In this document: positions 10,943 to 17,121 of the stretch, one piece after another
Position numbering within the stretch: the first letter of the stretch is position 1
How the letters are laid out: every line of letters starts with the position of its first letter
Source: Alphaproteobacteria bacterium
Lineage (GTDB): Bacteria > Pseudomonadota > Alphaproteobacteria > Micavibrionales > CSBR16-224
DNA length: 59,024 nt
Direction of reading: 5' to 3'
Assembly (NCBI GenBank): GCA_021775895.1
Contig: JAJFGX010000089.1
Coordinates: forward strand, 1 to 59,024
Translations under genes and position numbers: made by a program
Notes under the pieces: model-generated
Told to the model about the DNA's origin: nothing
The model's database searches: none
Seen by the model: only the letters and a program-made list of their open reading frames with translations

Positions 10943-11575
10943 ATGTCAGAAAACATAGAACAAGCATACATTTCAGGACAAGTAGCTGATGGTTTAAGCC
11001 CATCAGACCAAGCCATAATTGCTGGAGCTATATTAAATCAAGAATCAACAATACTTACAGAATCTACGCTTGAAAATGATAATAGAGCTAATAAACACCT
11101 AAGTAAATTTATGTTTGAAGTAAAAAAAACAACTAGTATGACTTCCAATATACAAAGAAGGTCTAAATTTTATTCTGATAGCCCAGCAGTCGAGTTGCTA
11201 CAAGAAGTCCTAGGCATTGTAGAAGACCTATCTTATGCTGTCGCAAAACGTAAATCATCTCAAAATGTAGTTAAAGATAGTTCAAAAAGCAAAAATATGA
11301 CGACAACCTCAAAATATGCGTTATCTAAAACACCTAAAAGTGCAAAGGTTGAAAATCAATGGAAAATTGCTAAACTTAAAAAGCTAAAAGAATTACATGG
11401 TCAAATTAAGCATGCTCTAGAAAATAAGCACACAATATCTAATGAGCAAGTAGAAAAAATTAGAAAAGGTGTGATTGCTATGCGTAACGATATTCATAAA
11501 GAGCTTGGATCAGGGCAATCAATCCCAAAACTAGAATCAAATAAAGCCCTAAATCAATCGATGAAAACTTTGTAG
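10943..11575 (+). CDS. Lysine/serine-rich hypothetical protein (210 aa)
   Basis: A good AGGAG site precedes the ATG. The protein is soluble, lysine-rich and largely helical: an N-terminal part with GLSPSDQAIIAGAILNQES (about 20-38), a helical middle (about 80-100), a low-complexity Ser/Lys linker (about 102-135), and a charged helix or coiled coil (about 138-185). There is no signal peptide or recognised domain. It lies upstream of the two-cysteine membrane protein with its own promoter, so a shared function is only a neighbourhood guess. Confidence 0.65.
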   Translation: MSENIEQAYISGQVADGLSPSDQAIIAGAILNQESTILTESTLENDNRANKHLSKFMFEVKKTTSMTSNIQRRSKFYSDSPAVELLQEVLGIVEDLSYAVAKRKSSQNVVKDSSKSKNMTTTSKYALSKTPKSAKVENQWKIAKLKKLKELHGQIKHALENKHTISNEQVEKIRKGVIAMRNDIHKELGSGQSIPKLESNKALNQSMKTL

Positions 11576-11712: not shown

Positions 11713-12495
11713 ATGGAAGAAAATAATACAGAAGAAAAGAGTTTAGTTGCATATTACGCAAAATCAGCCGGTTATCATACAGCGAAAGCCATAACTAGTG
11801 AGATAGGTGGTTATGCTTTAATTATAGCTAGTGCATTCATACTACCTTCTATGGCTATTAATAACCAAACTTTTGAAAGTGATATGGACAAAACTGGCAC
11901 ATATGAACATGATCAAGTATTAGAACAGCTAGTAACTAAGAAAGATAATTTGCTGTCAGGCGTTCAAAATTATATTGAGATAAGAGATAAAATGTCAGAA
12001 TACCAAGAGACTGGAGCACTTAGAGAATCTTTTATACTAGAGCCTGATCTACAACTACAAAAACAAGCTTCTGAAGAAGATGTTCGAGAATTTCTAGCAC
12101 ATGCATACATGAATGGCTCATCAGAAGAAGGCTTAGCCATTTCAGAAGTAGAGTTTCAATCTCTATTACGTGAAGTATCAAATGCAGACGTGGTATGGGA
12201 TGAAGATGTAAGCAATCTATTATCTGGATATAAACATGCAGAGCATATTGATGAATGTCGTGTTCAATCATATATTTCAGCCGATGCTGACGTAAAAGCA
12301 GTATTTGCAAATACCGCTAAAGAAATGAGAACCTGTGCTCAACAAGAAGATGATAGTCAAATAGCTGCCAGTACATTTGCTATTGGACTGGGTTCATGGA
12401 TTCCAGCTTTAGGGACACTGCTCTTACTCTGCAGTATTGAAGGTGCAACAAAAGGAGCAAGCAAACCTATCAAACCAAAAGTTAAAAAATTCTAG
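11713..12495 (+). CDS. Two-cysteine, two-TM membrane protein, paralog A
   Basis: The ATG follows AGGAAG. The 260-residue protein has an acidic N-terminal cytoplasmic stretch, TM1 (about 30-50), an extracytoplasmic helical domain of about 165 residues, TM2 (about 218-240) and a cationic tail (KPIKPKVKKF). It is collinear with the protein encoded at 16321-17121: both start MEx-x-x-S/T-x-EKS, both have an EEG motif at residues 138-140, Cys182 in an (I/L)DEC context, and a second cysteine 25-26 residues later just before TM2. The two cysteines could form a disulfide. No known family is recognised. It converges on lpxB with a 10-base gap. Confidence 0.7.
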   Translation: MEENNTEEKSLVAYYAKSAGYHTAKAITSEIGGYALIIASAFILPSMAINNQTFESDMDKTGTYEHDQVLEQLVTKKDNLLSGVQNYIEIRDKMSEYQETGALRESFILEPDLQLQKQASEEDVREFLAHAYMNGSSEEGLAISEVEFQSLLREVSNADVVWDEDVSNLLSGYKHAEHIDECRVQSYISADADVKAVFANTAKEMRTCAQQEDDSQIAASTFAIGLGSWIPALGTLLLLCSIEGATKGASKPIKPKVKKF

Positions 12496-12505
12496 ATACT
12501 TGAGC

Positions 12506-13639
12506 TTAAGAGGATAGCACTACATCTGCCGCTTTTTGAGATGGAGATAGACTGGAAAATTTATTCCTGATTGTAGAAAAACTGTCTTTTTGCGTTTTAG
12601 ATGCTTTTTCATCTGTTAATAAACGGTTTATATGCTTGAATAAATTATCGGCGGTGCAGTCTGAGAGTAACAGTTCAGGAATAACCTCTTGATTTAATAT
12701 AATATTTGGCAGACTAACATATGGTGTTTTAACCAGCCATTTAGCCAGCATGCTAGAAACAGCACCCATCTTATAACCTATAACTGTAGGCGTTCCTGTC
12801 ATCGCAAGCTCTAAAGCAACCGTCCCCGACGTTGCAAGAGCAACATCACTTGCGGCAAAAGCATCATACTTATCTTCACTTAATACTAATACATCGTTAT
12901 TAGCAAAATATTCTTCTACGCTATCTTTTAAGTGCGGAAGACTAATTGAAATTATCTTTATATTAGAATTTTCTCTTTTAGTTCTCTCAATAACTTTTTT
13001 AAATATCGGTAGCATTCTTTTAAGCTCTGAATGACGACTACCAGCTAAAACACATAATATTTTTTGACCCTCTAGAATGTTATATTTATGCCTAAATTTT
13101 AGTCCATCAGCATTCATCAAACTATCATTATCAACCATAGGGTGACCAACGAATGTGCATGGCAAACCCTCTTTTTCAAAATATGGTGGCTCAAATGGTA
13201 ATAAAGCTAAAATATGATCTAAAAAAACGGCTACTTTTTTTGCTCGTTTTGGTCGCCACGCCCAAACACTAGGTGCAACATAATGCACACATGGAGCTTT
13301 TACTAAGCCTCGCTTTTTTATCGCTTTAATTACACGAAAACAAAAATCTGGGGAATCTATGGTTACAATTACATCAGGTTGTTGTTTTTCAATGTCTTCT
13401 ACAGTTTGTTTAATTCTTGATAATAAATCAAATAACTTAGGTAAAATTTCTGCAATCCCCATAACCGAAAGTACTTCCATTGGAAATATAGAATCAAGCC
13501 CTTCAGCTATCATTTGCTTTCCGCCAACACCAAAGAAATCAATAGCATCAGAACTTTTTTCTTTTAAAGCCGCCATTAAAGAAGAACCGAGATTATCCCC
13601 AGATTCTTCACCAGCAATTATATAGATTTTTTTACTCAT
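12506..13639 (-). CDS. lpxB: Lipid-A-disaccharide synthase
   Basis: LpxB joins UDP-2,3-diacylglucosamine and lipid X to form the lipid A disaccharide at the inner membrane surface. The 377-residue protein has the GT19 features: IIAGEESGDNLG at the N terminus, VDSPDFCFR-type motif (TIDSPDFCFRV), YVAPSVWAWRPKRAKK, and the C-terminal GTVALELAMTGTP motif. It is the last gene of the lpxA-lpxI-phosphatase-lpxB row, 12 bases after the phosphatase gene. Confidence 0.95.
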   Translation of the reverse strand: MSKKIYIIAGEESGDNLGSSLMAALKEKSSDAIDFFGVGGKQMIAEGLDSIFPMEVLSVMGIAEILPKLFDLLSRIKQTVEDIEKQQPDVIVTIDSPDFCFRVIKAIKKRGLVKAPCVHYVAPSVWAWRPKRAKKVAVFLDHILALLPFEPPYFEKEGLPCTFVGHPMVDNDSLMNADGLKFRHKYNILEGQKILCVLAGSRHSELKRMLPIFKKVIERTKRENSNIKIISISLPHLKDSVEEYFANNDVLVLSEDKYDAFAASDVALATSGTVALELAMTGTPTVIGYKMGAVSSMLAKWLVKTPYVSLPNIILNQEVIPELLLSDCTADNLFKHINRLLTDEKASKTQKDSFSTIRNKFSSLSPSQKAADVVLSS

Positions 13640-13651
13640 AAAAACTCAATC

Positions 13652-14479
13652 TTAAATAGTGAATGATATATAAGCCCTATCATCATAAGAGACTTGACCA
13701 TGTTGTAGCCCTTTAGTTGAAGGATACTCCCGAAAAAGCAAAGGGTCTTCCTTAAGTACTTTTGTTAAAGCTTGTTCACTAGATTCTAACGTTGGTTTTA
13801 ATTCTGGATAACCGTCAGAGGCTAACACAATATGCTCCGCATTTTTAGTTGAGAAAAGCTCTACAAACTGCTCTGGTACAGAAGCTCCATTAACAACACC
13901 ATAGCCAAATTGACTGTCTGTATTATTTGCAAAAAGAAATTGTTTTTTTAAAATAGGCATTATAAAGTCACGCCCATAATCTTCCTCATAAAGCCCCTCC
14001 TCTAAAAATTCATTTGATAATATTCCTGCTTCAATGTAATTAGCCCTTGCCATAGAGGAGACATAGTCTATTAGCTTTCCACCATCATTAAGTAAACCGT
14101 CTAACATAAAGGGGCAGTCACCAACCCTTACAATATTCTCGTATTCTGGTAGATAGGCAACAAAACTTAAAGATGGAAAATCAATGTTTTGATTAGCGCC
14201 TTCTTCCAGTTCATCAAAAATAGCTTGTTTAAGATATACTGTCATTTTTTGCACAAGCTCTATTGGAGTAGTAATATTTTTAGAAATTGAGGGCAAAACA
14301 TTAGCAATAGTTTCTGCTGCAAATCGTCCAGATGAAACACCCTTGAACTTACGTCCACTTTTATCTGTTGCCCCATCAATTACAGCAATAATATTATCAT
14401 CTACAACAATAAAGTCTTCACAGCTATCTTCAGCTCCCATTTTACCTTGTAAAAACTGTTCTTTAATTCGATAACTCAT
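13652..14479 (-). CDS. PP2C-like protein phosphatase
   Basis: This 275-residue cytoplasmic protein shows the metal-binding motifs of PPM/PP2C phosphatases in order: DGATD (35-39), VGDCP (119-123), ASDGYPEL (220-227) and YDDRA (266-270 region). There is no membrane segment or sensor domain. Its ATG overlaps the lpxI stop by 4 bases and it is followed after 12 bases by lpxB, so it is translated from within the lipid A operon. The family dephosphorylates Ser/Thr or small molecules; a role in controlling lipid A synthesis is inference from position. No partner kinase is visible. Confidence 0.75.
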   Translation of the reverse strand: MSYRIKEQFLQGKMGAEDSCEDFIVVDDNIIAVIDGATDKSGRKFKGVSSGRFAAETIANVLPSISKNITTPIELVQKMTVYLKQAIFDELEEGANQNIDFPSLSFVAYLPEYENIVRVGDCPFMLDGLLNDGGKLIDYVSSMARANYIEAGILSNEFLEEGLYEEDYGRDFIMPILKKQFLFANNTDSQFGYGVVNGASVPEQFVELFSTKNAEHIVLASDGYPELKPTLESSEQALTKVLKEDPLLFREYPSTKGLQHGQVSYDDRAYISFTI

Positions 14480-15339
14480 ATCTCACCTGAAGTAATATTT
14501 TGTTCTAGAATACCATAGATAAAGAACTTATTTTTATCTGCTAGCATTATTGCCTTATCTTGTTCAAGAAACAACGTTTTACCAGCCTCCAGAGCTATAC
14601 CTGAAAAGCCAGCTTCTATAGCGTTTTCAATGGTTTTTAATCCTATCGTTGGCATATCAACCCGTTCATCTTGCTGTGGTTTGCAGCATTTGACTAAAAC
14701 AGGGGCTTCACCCTTGCGTTTTAGTGTTCCTGTACGCTCTATGAGAGCGTCTGTTCCCTCAATAGCCTCAAGCCCAAGCACCAAGCCATCTTGCAATACA
14801 ACAGCCTGCCCCACATCTAGCATACCCAGCTGTTTAGCCAAGTGCCAACCTTGCTGTATATCTTTCCAGTTAATTTTATTTGGCTTAACCTTCCCAATAG
14901 TTCCATTCGTAGTTAGCAAGTCAGGGCAAATATCATGAACCCCTACTATCTTAAACCCCTCTGTTTCCATCTCTTTAGTTACAGCTTGCAACAAACCATC
15001 ATCACCAAGTGCCTTTACGCCTAACTTTGCAAAAAATGCAATGCCACGCATATCAGGACGCAATTCCTTTAAGCTTGGGCGATGCAGATTACCTGCCATA
15101 GTTAGCTCTGAAATTCCTTCTTTCCGTAGAATATTGAAGGCTTCACCAACCGCTCCAAGCCTAACCCACGCATGAGGATAGCTAGATAGTAATTCTGGAT
15201 CAGTGAAATTCTCTAAAGCTAAAATAAAAAAAGGTCTGTTTTGTTTTAAGCAACTAGATACAACAGCAAATGGTAAGCCACCTGCTCCTGCAATAATTCC
15301 TAGACATGATTCTAATGATGTTTTTTGTTGTCGTTCCAT
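14476..15339 (-). CDS. lpxI: UDP-2,3-diacylglucosamine diphosphatase LpxI
   Basis: LpxI hydrolyses UDP-2,3-diacylglucosamine to lipid X, replacing LpxH in alphaproteobacteria. The 287-residue product has the DUF1009 pattern: LGIIAGAGGLPFAV near the N terminus, AMAGNLHRPSLKELRPD-type segment (TMAGNLHRPS), and the C-terminal KCCKPQQDERVDMPTIGLKTIE region. It follows lpxA by 17 bases and overlaps the next gene by 4. The start has no obvious Shine-Dalgarno, so coupling to lpxA is likely. Confidence 0.93.
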   Translation of the reverse strand: MERQQKTSLESCLGIIAGAGGLPFAVVSSCLKQNRPFFILALENFTDPELLSSYPHAWVRLGAVGEAFNILRKEGISELTMAGNLHRPSLKELRPDMRGIAFFAKLGVKALGDDGLLQAVTKEMETEGFKIVGVHDICPDLLTTNGTIGKVKPNKINWKDIQQGWHLAKQLGMLDVGQAVVLQDGLVLGLEAIEGTDALIERTGTLKRKGEAPVLVKCCKPQQDERVDMPTIGLKTIENAIEAGFSGIALEAGKTLFLEQDKAIMLADKNKFFIYGILEQNITSGEI

Positions 15340-15356
15340 TCTTATATAGTACTACA

Positions 15357-16142
15357 CTATTTAGGGCGACACATAGCACGACTTTCACGATTCTGCATAA
15401 ATTTAACCATCTTCATTACATAATCATCATTCGCATGATCTTTAGCAATTAAGTCAATCCGCTCTGCCATATTTCCGTCACCGTCAAAGATTCTTTTTGA
15501 TACTTTTAACAAAGTTTGTATTTGAGCTTTTTCAAAACCTTTACGCTCCATGCCAACATAATTTAATCCTGCAAGATATGCACGCTCTCCTTTTACCAGC
15601 CCATAAGGTATCACATCATTTTCAACCCCTGACATACCGCCAATAAAAGCATTATCACCAATGCGTACAAATTGATGTACTGCTGACAGACCACCGATAA
15701 TTACATTATCACCAACATGGACATGTCCTGCTAGTGTCGCATTATTTGCTAAAATAACTTTATTGCCAACAACACAATCATGTGCAACATGTGATGACAT
15801 CATAAACAAGCAATCATCTCCAATAATGGTTCTCATACTATCATCTGCTGTACCGGGATTTATTGTCACATGCTCACGAATAGTATTTCGCTCGCCAATA
15901 ATTAATTTTGATTCTTCACCATCATATTTTAAATCTTGTGGAGCATGACCGATAGATGCAAATGGATATATAACAGTTTCAGAGCCAATTACTGTATCTC
16001 CCTCAATCACTACATGAGACTTGAGCTCAACACCATCACCCAATTCAACTTTATCACCAACTACGCAATAAGCTCCAATCTTAACATCTTTACCAATCTT
16101 CGCATTTTCAGAAATAATTGCACTAGCATGTATATTTGTCAT
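15357..16142 (-). CDS. lpxA: UDP-N-acetylglucosamine acyltransferase
   Basis: LpxA carries out the first step of lipid A synthesis, adding a hydroxyacyl chain to UDP-GlcNAc. The 261-residue protein has an N-terminal left-handed beta-helix built of hexapeptide repeats (IHASAIISENAKIGKDVKIGAY split as short coils), the catalytic histidine region (AHDCVVGNKV, about 120), and a helical C-terminal domain. The start has AAGGA 9 bases upstream. It is the first gene of the lpxA-lpxI-phosphatase-lpxB operon and is divergent from membrane paralog B. fabZ and lpxD, usually next to it, are 20 kb away. Confidence 0.95.
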   Translation of the reverse strand: MTNIHASAIISENAKIGKDVKIGAYCVVGDKVELGDGVELKSHVVIEGDTVIGSETVIYPFASIGHAPQDLKYDGEESKLIIGERNTIREHVTINPGTADDSMRTIIGDDCLFMMSSHVAHDCVVGNKVILANNATLAGHVHVGDNVIIGGLSAVHQFVRIGDNAFIGGMSGVENDVIPYGLVKGERAYLAGLNYVGMERKGFEKAQIQTLLKVSKRIFDGDGNMAERIDLIAKDHANDDYVMKMVKFMQNRESRAMCRPK

Positions 16143-16320
16143 TATTTTAAATCCTTATTATTTTCCCTAGCTATAGCATCTAGAAAACAGCCAAACAAAG
16201 CAAAACACATTTTGTTGCAGAGTATTGCAATTGTAATTTCATATATCTATTGACATATAATTAAATATGTGTTACGTTTATAATATATTAATTAGATTCG
16301 ATAATGCAGAGGAAAAGCAA

Positions 16321-17121
16321 ATGGAAGATGAACGAAGTAAAGAAAAAAGTATTAATATCCCAAATCCTGTGCATTACACAGGAAAAACTATCAATGTTGC
16401 AGGGCCGCTATTCCCTCTCGTCATTGCAGTTGTATTATCAGGTTTTGGTTCAGTGTTCCTAGGTGATAGTATCATAGATGCTCATGATAGCATTCCAGAT
16501 ACTCAAGGTACTGGTAACCAAGCGGAACTTATTTTGGAACATGAGCAAAATTTTGCGGAGCTTTCTAAACTAGCTGAAGAATATAAAGAAACTAACGACT
16601 ATTTTTCTTTAGACACCAAATATGGCAACACTAAAGAAGGACAGGAAGATGCACTTAAAGCCTTAGCAGAAGAAATATCAACATCAATGAATGAAAACTA
16701 TATGAGTTTATTGTTAAGTGGGGCTGATAAAGAAGAAGGTGCCGCCCTGAGTGAAGAAAATTTTTCTCCTTTACATGAACAATTTGCTGAAATAGCCAAC
16801 AATACTGATGCTATCAAAGATTTAGGCTATGATATGAAAATAGAGGCTGGGGCTTTAGATGAATGTATCGCAGTTAATGATTCACTATCTTCACAAACGA
16901 CACTAGGTAGATACAATAATACAAAACAGCTTAACCAATGTATGGCTGAAGAACATGACAATAGTGGTTTTGGCTTAGCTTTACCTATCATCATTATAAC
17001 ATTTCTTGCGGGCACTTTTGGTGGAGGTTTTGCTTTACATACGGCTGCTGAAAATATGGAAGAAAAGCCTAACCGTATAAAAGTGAAACTTCCTAAACGT
17101 AAAAAGCCTAAGGCATGGTAG
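16321..17121 (+). CDS. Two-cysteine, two-TM membrane protein, paralog B
   Basis: The start at 16321 was chosen because GAGGAAAAGCAA precedes it; the longer frame from 16267 has no ribosome site. The 266-residue protein has TM1 (about 28-48), an extracytoplasmic domain, TM2 (about 216-240) and a strongly basic tail (KVKLPKRKKPKAW). It matches the 260-residue protein at 11713-12495 in layout and in landmark positions (EEG 138-140, Cys182 in LDEC, second Cys at 207). The pair encloses the lpx block and runs opposite to it. No known family is recognised. The last 14 bases overlap alr on the other strand. Confidence 0.7.
   Translation: MEDERSKEKSINIPNPVHYTGKTINVAGPLFPLVIAVVLSGFGSVFLGDSIIDAHDSIPDTQGTGNQAELILEHEQNFAELSKLAEEYKETNDYFSLDTKYGNTKEGQEDALKALAEEISTSMNENYMSLLLSGADKEEGAALSEENFSPLHEQFAEIANNTDAIKDLGYDMKIEAGALDECIAVNDSLSSQTTLGRYNNTKQLNQCMAEEHDNSGFGLALPIIIITFLAGTFGGGFALHTAAENMEEKPNRIKVKLPKRKKPKAW

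Follow-up and report, generated by a model that had tools for sequence, protein, structure and literature searches.

Two putative membrane proteins of similar build lie on either side of a group of lipid A genes in the window (the whole stretch of DNA analysed, 59,024 nucleotides), and this arrangement raises the question of whether the two proteins are related, and whether they serve the genes between them or belong to something larger. Both open reading frames (ORFs) are genuine, at 11713-12495 (260 aa) and 16321-17121 (266 aa) on the + strand, and a longer in-frame ATG at 16267 is a possible earlier start of the latter. The architecture that the first-pass annotation had described for both, a transmembrane segment (TM), an external domain, a second TM and a basic tail, was recovered in each, with an external domain of about 150 residues that is acidic and helical, and the landmarks it had listed are in place (EEG at 138-140, DEC at 180-182 and a second cysteine at 208 in member 1 and at 207 in member 2). 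The features of the locus are as follows.

11713..12495, + strand: member 1, 260 aa, with N-terminus inside, TM1, acidic helical external domain, TM2 and basic cytoplasmic tail with terminal Phe
11800..11859, + strand: TM1 of member 1, about residues 30-49 (hydropathy, charge pattern, sequence)
12256..12258, + strand: Cys182 of member 1, in the LDE[C/A/T] motif
12334..12336, + strand: Cys208 of member 1, presumed disulfide partner (two-or-none cysteine rule)
12376..12435, + strand: TM2 of member 1, about residues 222-241 (hydropathy)
12436..12492, + strand: basic cytoplasmic tail of member 1, ...KPIKPKVKKF (terminal Phe codon 12490-12492)
12506..13639, - strand: lpxB, convergent with member 1 (NCBIfam; adjacency kept in G002 and G006)
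14476..16142, - strand: lpxI and lpxA, between members 1 and 2 and outside the membrane protein family (NCBIfam)
16321..17121, + strand: member 2, 266 aa, architecture as member 1, terminal Trp
16405..16464, + strand: TM1 of member 2, about residues 29-48 (hydropathy)
16864..16866, + strand: Cys182 of member 2, in the DEC motif
16939..16941, + strand: Cys207 of member 2, presumed disulfide partner
16969..17037, + strand: TM2 of member 2, about residues 217-239 (hydropathy; AF2 helix, low confidence)
17038..17118, + strand: basic cytoplasmic tail of member 2, ...KLPKRKKPKAW (terminal Trp codon 17116-17118)

A dispersed family of membrane hairpins

The two proteins are paralogous, since direct blastp relates them at E 8e-5 and hhalign, comparing two profiles each derived from its own orthologue set, aligns 220 columns (Prob 98.8, E 1.4e-16); the similarity is thus above chance after profile comparison, on which the first-pass annotation had made their kinship depend. 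That annotation had also asked whether further copies exist, and profile searches of the genome (2.0 Mb in 137 contigs) revealed about 52-55 genes. Single-protein queries reached about a dozen places in total, a first profile gave 23 matches and a broader one 57, some of which are halves of one gene; 57 ORFs were kept, of which 52 are nearly complete and have a genuine 3' end, and from these we estimate 52-55 genes. By our estimate from gene density, the family may account for 2-3% of this bacterium's genes. Most copies stand singly and adjoin unrelated housekeeping genes, but some form tandem groups. In the family at large, tandem arrays of 4-6 copies occur, and some copies are recent tandem duplicates. 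Neither the dispersed copies (about 52-55), nor the near-uniform terminal residue described below, nor the members lacking both cysteines had been seen in the first-pass annotation.

Given this dispersal over a 2.0 Mb genome, the bracketing of the lipid A block by members 1 and 2 is mostly incidental. The proposed link to lipid A survives in part only: the family as a whole is scattered among housekeeping genes, while the copy on the lpxB side, the only one of the two that keeps its lipid A place, has a position conserved across related genera, lpxB being the neighbour of its orthologues in G002 and G006 and also of a pair of family members in G004. The enclosed genes named earlier were likewise confirmed in part. 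NCBIfam identified lpxB, lpxI and lpxA, all on the opposite strand, with LpxI scoring below its own curated cut-off; the ORF at 13652-14479 between lpxB and lpxI, which had been called a phosphatase, matches nothing in Pfam or NCBIfam, even with E allowed up to 1.

Members were present in all seven genomes examined from the taxonomic family of the window. The complete genome of G002, which belongs to a sister genus, carries 35 copies, and nine each were found in the fetched loci of G003 and G004. Among 142 genomes of the order, those outside this taxonomic family gave weak matches only (G140, G029 and, partially, G064), of which G140 and G029 join the family upon iteration; no family members were found in the rest of the class (385 genomes of the class searched), nor in phage, plasmid and viral-contig searches. 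Weak matches also occurred in other genomes of the phylum, and the two cases that were read are, by sequence, a short ElaB/YqjD-like coiled coil that does not belong to the family. The family's range hardly extends beyond a single taxonomic family within an alphaproteobacterial order. Metagenome-assembled genomes bearing the name CSBr16 originate from Cock Soda Lake (PMC6704655).

In members of the family, a TM is followed by a helical domain with SE and LDE motifs, a second TM and a basic tail some 24 residues long. Conservation is complete or almost so at three sites: Asp-x-x-Gly-Thr follows TM1, Ser-Glu lies midway, and Leu-Asp-Glu precedes the first cysteine. On average, the segment ahead of TM1 carries a positive charge, the external domain about -18 and the stretch beyond TM2 about +5.5, a pattern that fits a topology with both termini inside. 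Hydropathy and charge together support an inner-membrane hairpin, in which a cytoplasmic N-terminus leads through TM1 into an acidic helical periplasmic domain of about 150 residues and back through TM2 to a cytoplasmic C-terminus. The external domains diverge strongly, most copies being 15-25% identical, and the N-terminal cytoplasmic segments are short and differ by subfamily, with a conserved pattern. AF2 models member 2 at a mean pLDDT of 66, with the helical external domain at about 80-90; the model of member 1 was poor (pLDDT 42) and was not used.

No named family had been known for the two proteins, and none has come to light, as no confident match was obtained in Pfam, NCBIfam, PHROGs or PDB. 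In the scanned members, Pfam, NCBIfam and PHROGs returned no family-domain match and ankyrin repeats only, fused N-terminally onto two members; a PDB profile search found nothing at E <= 0.001, and Foldseek searches of PDB and BFVD with the moderate model of member 2, a partial test at that mean pLDDT, likewise gave no match at E <= 0.001. They may be envelope sensors or structural proteins, as the first-pass annotation had suggested, although no output domain was found in the family proteins. We judge the family to be new.

Of 138 members, 136 have either a pair of external cysteines or none at all, and the other two have a single one. Among the member 1 orthologues on the lpxB side, the first cysteine is replaced by Ala in nearly all and the second position lacks Cys. 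Presence or absence of the pair as a unit is as expected of a disulfide, and the disulfide proposed in the first-pass annotation is accordingly judged probable from these sequence patterns; where present, it would stabilise the helical domain. DsbB occurs in all seven genomes searched, which rules out loss of the Dsb system as the cause of cysteine loss.

The terminal residue follows the genome

Within the tail, the constraint falls on the chain end. In the genome of the window (G000), 50 of 52-53 members end in Trp, Tyr or Phe, against 11 of 165 in the non-family background (p 1e-34), whereas in G002 the terminal residue is His in every member counted (33/33 to 35/35, against 4/117 in the background, p 4e-29) and in G003, which represents another genus, it is Asn in 9/9 (background 0/14). 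Terminal His is also found in G005 (7/7), G006 (9/9) and G001 (8/11). G004 is looser, most of its members ending in Leu or in Leu plus one residue (L, LN, LA, LS); together with the 3/11 exceptions in G001 and three weak ones in the window's own genome, this indicates that the rule is not absolute in every genome. In G002 and G003 the entropy at position -1 falls to 0 bits, whereas positions -2 to -8 in G002 show about 2.5-3.0 bits. Over 1.2 Mb of stretches from G002, His ends 23 of 1084 non-family proteins (about 2%), and none of the 28 non-family proteins of that genome with a C-terminal TM and a basic tail. The tallies were reproduced with a profile built free of the tail, including on G002 stretches that had not been chosen for the family, and for the genomes studied the rule has firm statistical backing. 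The codons for the terminal residue vary (CAT and CAC for His; TAT, TAC, TGG, TTC and TTT for the aromatics), which shows that the constraint acts on the protein.

Outside the family, a 610-aa protein ends in ...KPKPH in the sister genus with terminal His, which may hint at a wider rule. As a case for a wider tag on non-family proteins it is unsupported, since its G003 homologue ends in W.

The history of the terminal residue was followed on a tree of 135 members from which the last 25 residues had been left out, made by a quick method with weak deep branches and several long branches. Many subfamilies mix genomes, and the terminal class changes at least 29 times on the tree, with 13 of these changes forced by well-supported branches. 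When independent pairs were drawn from the window's genome and the His genomes, the residue agreed with the genome of origin in 10-12 of 12, and the reverse was never seen (p about 5e-4 to 2e-3). Orthology of the switched pairs was confirmed from neighbouring genes, independently of the tree. Beside lpxB, the copy ends in ...KVKKF here, in ...KPKPSH in G002 and in ...KPKASH in G006, and the pair in G004 in KKSL and RSLN; beside Lrp and an ELM1-like gene, ...KPKNY here stands against ...PPPPKH in the orthologue, and further synteny-matched pairs are ...PKINKW versus ...PKRFKH and ...RRNIY versus ...SGFNH. Between tails ending LPTNY or LPTNW in this genome and LPTSH in that of G001, most of the difference lies at the chain end. 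The terminal residue thus tracks the genome and not the subfamily; parallel changes have taken place in many orthologous subfamilies, and all copies appear to have switched together.

A possible common reader of the tails

How could dozens of divergent proteins change one residue in concert? We consider it probable that the family is a diversified set of envelope hairpins whose cytoplasmic C-termini serve as a common address tag, recognised by a single partner that co-evolves with them. The free end of the tail would be bound by one common trans-acting partner per lineage, a many-to-one arrangement in which an altered partner pocket would select the matching terminal change in every copy. More tentatively, and at somewhat less than even chances, these tails may constitute a bacterial address system in which one lineage-evolving cytoplasmic receptor reads dozens of free C-termini, the set switching its terminal residue (W/Y/F, H, N or L-type) with the receptor. 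No partner gene for the tails emerged from the searches made here.

Other explanations would dispense with such a partner or give the tail a different reader. The terminal residue might pack into a pocket built from cytoplasmic parts of the family proteins themselves, tails and pockets co-evolving in hetero-oligomers without an outside receptor. Such self-assembly would suit the restriction of the terminal rule to the family, the conserved pattern of the N-terminal cytoplasmic segments and the tandem arrays of 4-6 copies, but we regard it as unlikely, because at 15-25% identity and with subfamily-specific N-termini it needs dozens of pockets changing together. Binding within the family could be tail to tail or tail to N-terminus. 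It is quite unlikely that the tail is instead an export or processing signal, recognised by an enzyme of secretion or sorting (type IV, or exosortase/rhombosortase-like) by which the proteins are moved or released, even though a basic C-terminal cluster behind a TM is reminiscent of tripartite many-to-one sorting signals (PMC3237569) and the N-terminal ankyrin repeats of two members are common in effectors. Exosortase was found in none of the seven genomes searched, six of them from the taxonomic family of the window (one control genome, an archaeon, did match), no VirD4 coupling protein scored above cut-off in seven genomes, and the constrained site is the very last residue and not a motif preceding the TM.

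That some copies are recent tandem duplicates could suggest that the shared residue comes from one recent copy or from homogenisation at the DNA level; this is very improbable, as orthologous subfamilies cross genera and yet the residue tracks the genome, and the synteny-matched pairs contradict it. Gene conversion or a DNA-level constraint is ruled out by the codon diversity, the same residue class arising from different codons with diverse adjacent tail residues. The least probable reading of all is a dedicated lipid A/LPS function, in which members 1 and 2 would serve the enclosed lpx genes: the lpxB-adjacent copy is indeed kept in place in several genera, but about 50 other copies lie among unrelated genes and the enclosed genes are on the opposite strand.

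The reading that we prefer, a common partner of the tails, can be set beside known systems. A short C-terminal address read by a single receptor is a principle with analogues elsewhere. The ER tags KDEL and HDEL differ in their residues between lineages along with the receptor, and the likeness lies in this logic of a lineage-varying C-terminal tag, although KDEL/HDEL are eukaryotic, lumenal and carried by unrelated proteins. Outer-membrane beta-barrels possess a conserved terminal aromatic signal with lineage preferences; the present proteins, in contrast, are helical hairpins with a basic tail whose terminal residue may be His or Asn. The chlamydial Inc proteins form a large lineage-restricted two-TM set with a short inter-TM loop and are type III secreted, whereas here the inter-TM loop is a 150-residue domain.

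Closer in outline are two bacterial systems. C-terminal sorting signals have been proposed to pair many-to-one with one enzyme (PMC3237569), and like the LPXTG, PEP-CTERM and GlyGly-CTERM proteins handled by sortase, exosortase and rhombosortase the family is lineage-specific, with many proteins per genome that bear a C-terminal TM and a basic cluster. Those signals, however, are suffixes carried by otherwise unrelated proteins and have a motif preceding the TM, whereas here full-length homologues are constrained at the last residue, no exosortase was found, and the family alignment has no conserved PEP-CTERM or GlyGly-CTERM signature before TM2. The C-terminal pentapeptide NWETF of chemoreceptors, bound by CheR/CheB (PMC7390727), is comparable as a short aromatic-ended C-terminus of membrane receptors with periplasmic domains and a common partner, but the family tail is basic rather than acidic, is carried by nearly all paralogues and switches its residue by lineage, and no Pfam match to the MCP signalling domain was found in family members. 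The family has the defining features of neither the sorting signals nor the chemoreceptor pentapeptide. 

From a few literature searches confined to open papers, we know of no precedent for terminal-residue switching across a whole bacterial paralogous family. The concerted change in dozens of divergent paralogues amounts to a natural experiment that points to a common binding partner; the partner is thereby findable, by tail-peptide pull-down or co-evolution, and recognition can be tested with single-residue swaps. The most likely use of the tail would be to dock or place a diversified periplasmic-facing repertoire on a shared cytoplasmic hub, which the diversified external domains, the common tail and the lack of an output domain make the likeliest choice, and the docked proteins may be receptors or envelope assembly subunits. 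If confirmed, this would amount to an address code at the C-terminus with no bacterial counterpart known to us, and the address system, if true, would follow a logic like that of KDEL/HDEL while being unrelated to known bacterial sorting signals.

Open reading frames in the window

Window 10943-11575, (+): 210-aa ORF immediately upstream of the first family member
Window 13652-14479, (-): ORF between lpxB and lpxI, labelled a phosphatase in the first-pass annotation

Nothing confident was returned for the former by Pfam or NCBIfam, and the latter had no match in either at E up to 1.

Proteins of related genomes

G002 contig C1, 347292-347870, (-): one-TM protein with LDGC...C, last residue Pro
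G002 contig C1, 423086-424915 (stretch L232); G005 contig C84 (L233); G003 contig C2 (L234): non-family protein with D/N-rich repeats

The one-TM protein may be a remote relative, at an E of only about 1e-4 to 7e-4. In the repeat protein, a TM at the C-terminal side is followed by a tail, ending in ...NPKPKPH in the sister genus (G002, G005) and in ...KKKKKLDW in the G003 homologue. Distant repeat relatives occur on contig C67 of the window's own genome.

Family genes in the window's genome

Stretch L137, 515-1654, (-), contig C112: family member with N-terminal ankyrin repeats
Stretch L122, 2260-3405, (-), contig C25: family member with N-terminal ankyrin repeats

Ankyrin repeats precede the hairpin in two members. 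Other members (L140, L161) are adjoined by standalone ankyrin-like genes. TGA serves as stop in none of 53 family genes, versus 21 of 165 neighbours. Since one family gene is apparently divided between the start of C34 (L024:2-376) and the end of C112 (L025:1450-1977), these contigs are suggested to be neighbours.
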